Origin: an uncultured Gammaproteobacteria bacterium
GTDB taxonomy: Bacteria; Pseudomonadota; Gammaproteobacteria; GCA-001735895
Direction of reading: 5' to 3'
DNA: 55,670 nt
Assembly: GCA_947260025.1 (NCBI GenBank)
Contig: CAMYON010000021.1
Span: forward strand, 4,655 to 60,324
Shown: piece after piece, positions 23,666 through 24,287 of the stretch
Position numbering within the stretch: the stretch's first letter is position 1
Layout of the letters: each line of letters begins with the position of its first letter
The notes under the pieces: model-generated
Databases searched by the model: none
The model's input: only the letters and a program-made list of their open reading frames with translations
Told to the model about the DNA's origin: nothing
Translations under genes and position numbers: made by a program

Positions 23666-24287
23666 ATGAGCAGCAATAGCGAGATAACCCGAAACGGCCT
23701 GTGGTACCAGCACCGTGGTCAACGGCATCGGTCTCGGCATTGCGACGCTGATCACCCTGGTACTGTCAAACACGATTGTCTCGTTGATCCGCGGCTTCGT
23801 GCGCAAGGAAGTGCGCCTGCCCGTATTCGTGCTGATCATCGCGTCGGTGGTGACGATCATCGAGCTGGCAATGAAGGCCCTGTTCTACGACCTTTATCTC
23901 GTGCTCGGCATATTCATCCCGCTCATCGTCACCAATTGCGCCATCATCGGTCGCGCCGAGGGCTTCGCCTCGCGCAACCCGGTAGGCCCGTCCGCGCTCG
24001 ATGGCCTGATGATGGGCACGGGTTTCCTGGTGGTGCTCGCCCTGCTCGGCGGCCTGCGTGAAATTATCGGCTTCGGTACGCTGTTTGCCAACGCCGAGCT
24101 CATGTTCGGCGAAGGCGCGCAATCGTTAACAGTGGTCCTGAACCAGGATTACCCGGGCTTCCTGCTGGCGGTGTTGCCGCCGGGCGCATTTTTCGGGTTG
24201 GCGATCCTGATCGTCGCCAAGAACTGGCTCGACCTGCGGCCGGCGGAAAAACCCGAACCTGCCGCTCCCTTGCCGGAAGGCGCATGA
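23666..24287 (+). pseudogene. rsxE: rsxE/rnfE with an out-of-frame internal deletion
   Basis: The ATG at 23666 begins a family-like N-terminus (SSNSEITRNGLW). At about 23705-23709 the reading jumps to another frame, which then continues as [20 protein letters not shown] and so on, with good RnfE likeness to the stop at 24287. Compared with the E. coli RsxE sequence as I remember it, the 19 residues between GLW and the STxxNxLGLG segment are missing. These include the conserved [12 protein letters not shown] helix; only about four bases remain where 57 are expected. The loss is therefore about 53 bases and shifts the frame. The rest (about 190 residues from a GTG at 23715) is intact, including NCAIIGRAEGFASRN. 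It is either a real mutation or an assembly error. Confidence 0.75.

Follow-up and report, generated by a model that had tools for sequence, protein, structure and literature searches.

The rsxABCDGE operon in the window, by which we mean the whole stretch of 55,670 nucleotides analyzed here, raises the question of whether rsxE is broken in the sampled bacterium, an uncultured gammaproteobacterium, or only in its assembly. All six genes are present in order, five of them intact, and the features of the operon are as follows.

19331..19912, + strand: rsxA, intact; full-length match to ncbifam NF003481
19916..20476, + strand: rsxB, intact; ncbifam NF003475
20466..22019, + strand: rsxC, intact; ncbifam NF003454
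22016..23038, + strand: rsxD, intact; ncbifam NF002011
23035..23655, + strand: rsxG, intact, start ATG 23035; ncbifam NF002519
23666..23704, + strand: rsxE 5′ end, intact (MSSNSEITRNGLW); residue-for-residue match to relatives L003 and L032 up to GLW
23704..23705, + strand: rsxE junction, 53 bases absent in alignments with G017, G023, and 23 congeners; no N and no microhomology
23705..24287, + strand: rsxE body, transmembrane helices II–VI, in the +1 frame; IVTNC cysteine kept; PRK12405 match
24284..24919, + strand: nth (endonuclease III), next gene of the operon; TIGR01083; start overlaps the rsxE stop

The open rsxA, rsxB, rsxC, rsxD, and rsxG genes all matched their models above the curated cut-offs, in agreement with the preliminary description, in which these five genes were regarded as intact. 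The body of rsxE alone matched ncbifam PRK12405 (RsxE) with 245.9 bits against a cut-off of 184, and the match began at position 36 of the 231 model positions, compared with position 3 in an intact relative. Because the N terminus is missing, the TIGR01948 score of the body was 205.5, just below the cut-off of 213.4. The locus thus has the gene order rsxA-B-C-D-G-E followed by nth, the subunit sequences, and the IVTNC cysteine in common with the RnfABCDGE complex, a membrane pump for electron transfer (TIGR01948, PRK12405), but differs from RsxE/RnfE of this complex in that its start frame is broken and the helix I segment is absent as assembled.

In the open reading frame starting at ATG 23666, translation proceeds through MSSNSEITRNGLW, leaves the family frame, and continues to 24061, giving 131 amino acid residues. 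The body, beginning with STVVNGIG, lies in the +1 frame relative to this start and ends at the stop codon 24285–24287, and the sole usable start in its frame is GTG 23715. It had been stated from the window alone that the N terminus and the body are in different frames and that 4 bases are present between GLW and STVVNGIG where 57 are expected. Both statements were exact: the window has 4 bases at this position, whereas the nearest relative, G017 (also JAACFA010000019.1), and all 23 of the 23 congeners read there have 57. G017, which is 88% identical to the window at the DNA level across the rsxE region, carries the rsxE N terminus and the helix I segment in one continuous frame. In this region, blastn aligned 738 window bases with 791 bases of G017, and the gapped alignment of the two contained one notable gap, 53 bases in length, at 23704/23705, where the joint reads GGCCTGTGG followed by TACCAGCACC without any N. 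The 53-base segment was kept not only in the 23 congeners but also in the distant relatives with a readable N terminus, and the comparison with relatives proposed in the preliminary description revealed the same shortened, in-frame N terminus in none of those read.

The lost 53 bases code for the greater part of transmembrane helix I, including its invariant LGLCP cysteine. This helix of RsxE/RnfE, with the cluster-ligating cysteine, is absent in the window and present in all relatives readable there. In the structure from Clostridium tetanomorphum, Cys26 and Cys109 of RnfE and Cys25 and Cys113 of RnfA form the metal site, RnfE Cys26 being one of its four invariant thiols (PMC9588780), and a review describes a [2Fe-2S] cluster with four half-helix cysteines that moves electrons across the membrane (PMC12174285). 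The earlier proposal that the missing helix holds a conserved segment with a cysteine of the RnfA/RnfE iron-sulfur center was therefore borne out by the alignment of relatives and by this structure (PMC9588780). The second invariant cysteine (half-helix IV, VTNC; IVTNC in the window), which was aligned to the solved RnfE structures 8ahx and 7zc6 by way of a relative's sequence, is retained in the rsxE body. Because helix I and its cysteine are missing, the protein produced from the rsxE sequence as assembled could not form the RnfA/RnfE cluster as it is known. No second copy of the lost segment was found anywhere in the assembly searched. No backup RnfE or NQR subunit was found in the assembly either, the matches being limited to RsxA and the broken rsxE; NQR-like relatives are additionally present in many congeners.

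The rsxE body showed 98.9% amino acid identity to G017 and a dN/dS of 0.032, compared with 0.038 for rsxA and 0.040 for nth, and rsxG was 93.2% identical to its G017 counterpart. No further lesion was found in the rest of rsxE, which, on these comparisons, appears to be under strong purifying selection. Relaxed selection on rsxE was also considered, and no sign of it was seen at this dN/dS. Since the body evolves like that of a working gene and has no second lesion, the loss of the 53 bases would be either very recent or absent from the organism.

The assembly was built by scaffolding pieces that had not been joined. Ten N runs of 3–120 bases occurred in 1.27 Mb taken from the window's genome (G000), and two of them lie on the window's own scaffold (C21), directly at its borders. 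Seven gaps were comparable with relatives.

L177:4635-4654, scaffold C21: N gap at the upstream border of the window; 20 Ns against 128–130 bases in relatives
L178:2326-2378, scaffold C21: N gap at the other border of the window; 53 Ns against 37 bases in relatives
Other gaps in G000: 36 Ns against 140 bases, 11 against 31, and 12 against 102
Further gaps in G000: 3 Ns against ~172 bases and 120 Ns against ~224 (poor alignment)

Six of the seven were underestimated by 20–169 bases, and one was overestimated by 16. With underestimates of this magnitude, real gaps of 53 bases would in many cases receive an estimated size of zero or below. Chen et al. (2020) reported that scaffolding gaps and local assembly errors result in incorrect protein-coding genes in draft MAGs (PMC7111523). 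The rsxE locus resembles such cases in the sequence missing at an apparent join, the short-read style of the draft, and the incorrect protein-coding gene, but its joint contains no Ns and is hence not flagged as a gap.

Deletions without Ns were frequent in the G017 assembly, where at least 10, with lengths of 20–44 bases, were located within ORFs whose G000 counterparts are intact (~112 kb aligned); 8 of 10 shifted the frame, and for the two that could be compared with a third genome, the third genome agreed with G000. Such a density of deletions is not credible as biology, which indicates that N-free joints of this kind arise in assemblies. Deletions without Ns, with lengths of 20 bases and 44 bases, were seen in G017 (L165 and L166) opposite window positions 218 and 35186, respectively; the window and G023 have both genes intact, and the second encodes a nucleotidyltransferase. 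In G000, the ~234 kb compared by protein contained no clear N-free coding deletion of such size apart from the rsxE joint, but this comparison is blind to breaks near gene ends. Among the other candidates for frame changes in G000, L186 and L205 sit on N runs, L162 and L181 are explained by deletions in the assembly of G017, and several more look like antisense or non-genic ORFs.

We consider it probable that the 53-base loss in rsxE is an artefact of a scaffold join and that the operon is otherwise a normal rsxABCDGE operon, because the draft has mis-sized joins nearby and all readable relatives keep the segment. An assembly artefact, mentioned in the preliminary description as the alternative to a disabled complex, is thus favored by the mis-sized gaps, the homology-free joint, and the lack of gene decay. 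Two contig ends would flank a short unassembled stretch inside rsxE, and the scaffolder may have put the gap between them at zero or less and joined the ends without Ns; the DNA of the cells would then be intact, with an ordinary rsxE and a normal Rsx/Rnf complex. The lack of Ns at the joint counts against a scaffold join, since recognized gaps in the same assembly do contain Ns, and with rsxE as the only clear case in the sequence compared, N-free artefacts would be rare in G000 and a true strain-level deletion is possible. A very recent deletion in the sampled strain, by which RsxE would be knocked out and RnfA-RnfE electron transfer and the whole complex lost, nevertheless seems unlikely. 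The clean, N-free joint in the sequence as given is consistent with it, and end joining yields short deletions without homology. Deletions of rnf in other bacteria cause phenotypes linked to the loss of membrane ferredoxin-NAD+ oxidoreductase activity, so that viable null mutants are conceivable (PMC9588780). However, no second lesion accompanies the low dN/dS of the body, every congener read keeps the segment, the genome has no backup RnfE or NQR, and gaps on the same scaffold are mis-sized. If the deletion were real, translation of nth might be uncoupled, as its start overlaps the rsxE stop. We likewise doubt that the sampled population harbors a new rsxE null allele in an otherwise strongly conserved complex without backup, suggestive of ongoing Rsx loss in the strain; if true, this would add a single example of Rsx having been lost recently.

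Other origins of the joint, and a functional product from it, were weighed against the scaffold-join artefact. Recombination between ACCAG direct repeats, as put forward in the preliminary description, is supported by an ACCAG 3′ of the joint, but it requires a 5′ copy that starts one base past the TGG codon of the GLW tryptophan, where ACCAG occurred in none of 108 relatives. Only in distant relatives does ACCAG occur near the 5′ side, and there it lies further in, where recombination would keep codons that are missing from the window. Moreover, with 23 of 23 congeners as proxies, microhomology between the lost segment and the window flanks was 0 bases, which fits an end-to-end join, and the repeat model retains almost no probability. 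A hairpin in the lost segment as the cause of a dropout was rejected, as 38.5% of random 53-mers from the window reach the same or a higher folding stability. It is also very improbable that a short working RsxE is produced from GTG 23715, the frame being open from there to 24287, or that the gene is rescued by ribosomal frameshifting: both routes would leave the protein without transmembrane helix I and the invariant cluster cysteine (Cys26 in C. tetanomorphum RnfE, PMC9588780), no relative read shows a shortened N terminus, and no Shine-Dalgarno-like sequence was evident by eye before GTG 23715. Caution is needed with draft metagenome assemblies, which can conceal unassembled stretches as N-free joints that mimic gene-killing deletions; one broken gene in such a genome is therefore no evidence of pathway loss.

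Elsewhere in the window, a TauE/SafE-like gene (50338–50670; PF01925, weak match) retains only ~72 N-terminal residues. At 50534, 13 bases between imperfect direct repeats are lost; this and the subsequent end of homology to G017 break the gene, and the remnant is followed by an unrelated PBP-like gene (PF12849, 50670–51554). The intergenic region at 4008–4200 contains two strong, terminator-like inverted repeats that are variable among congeners.
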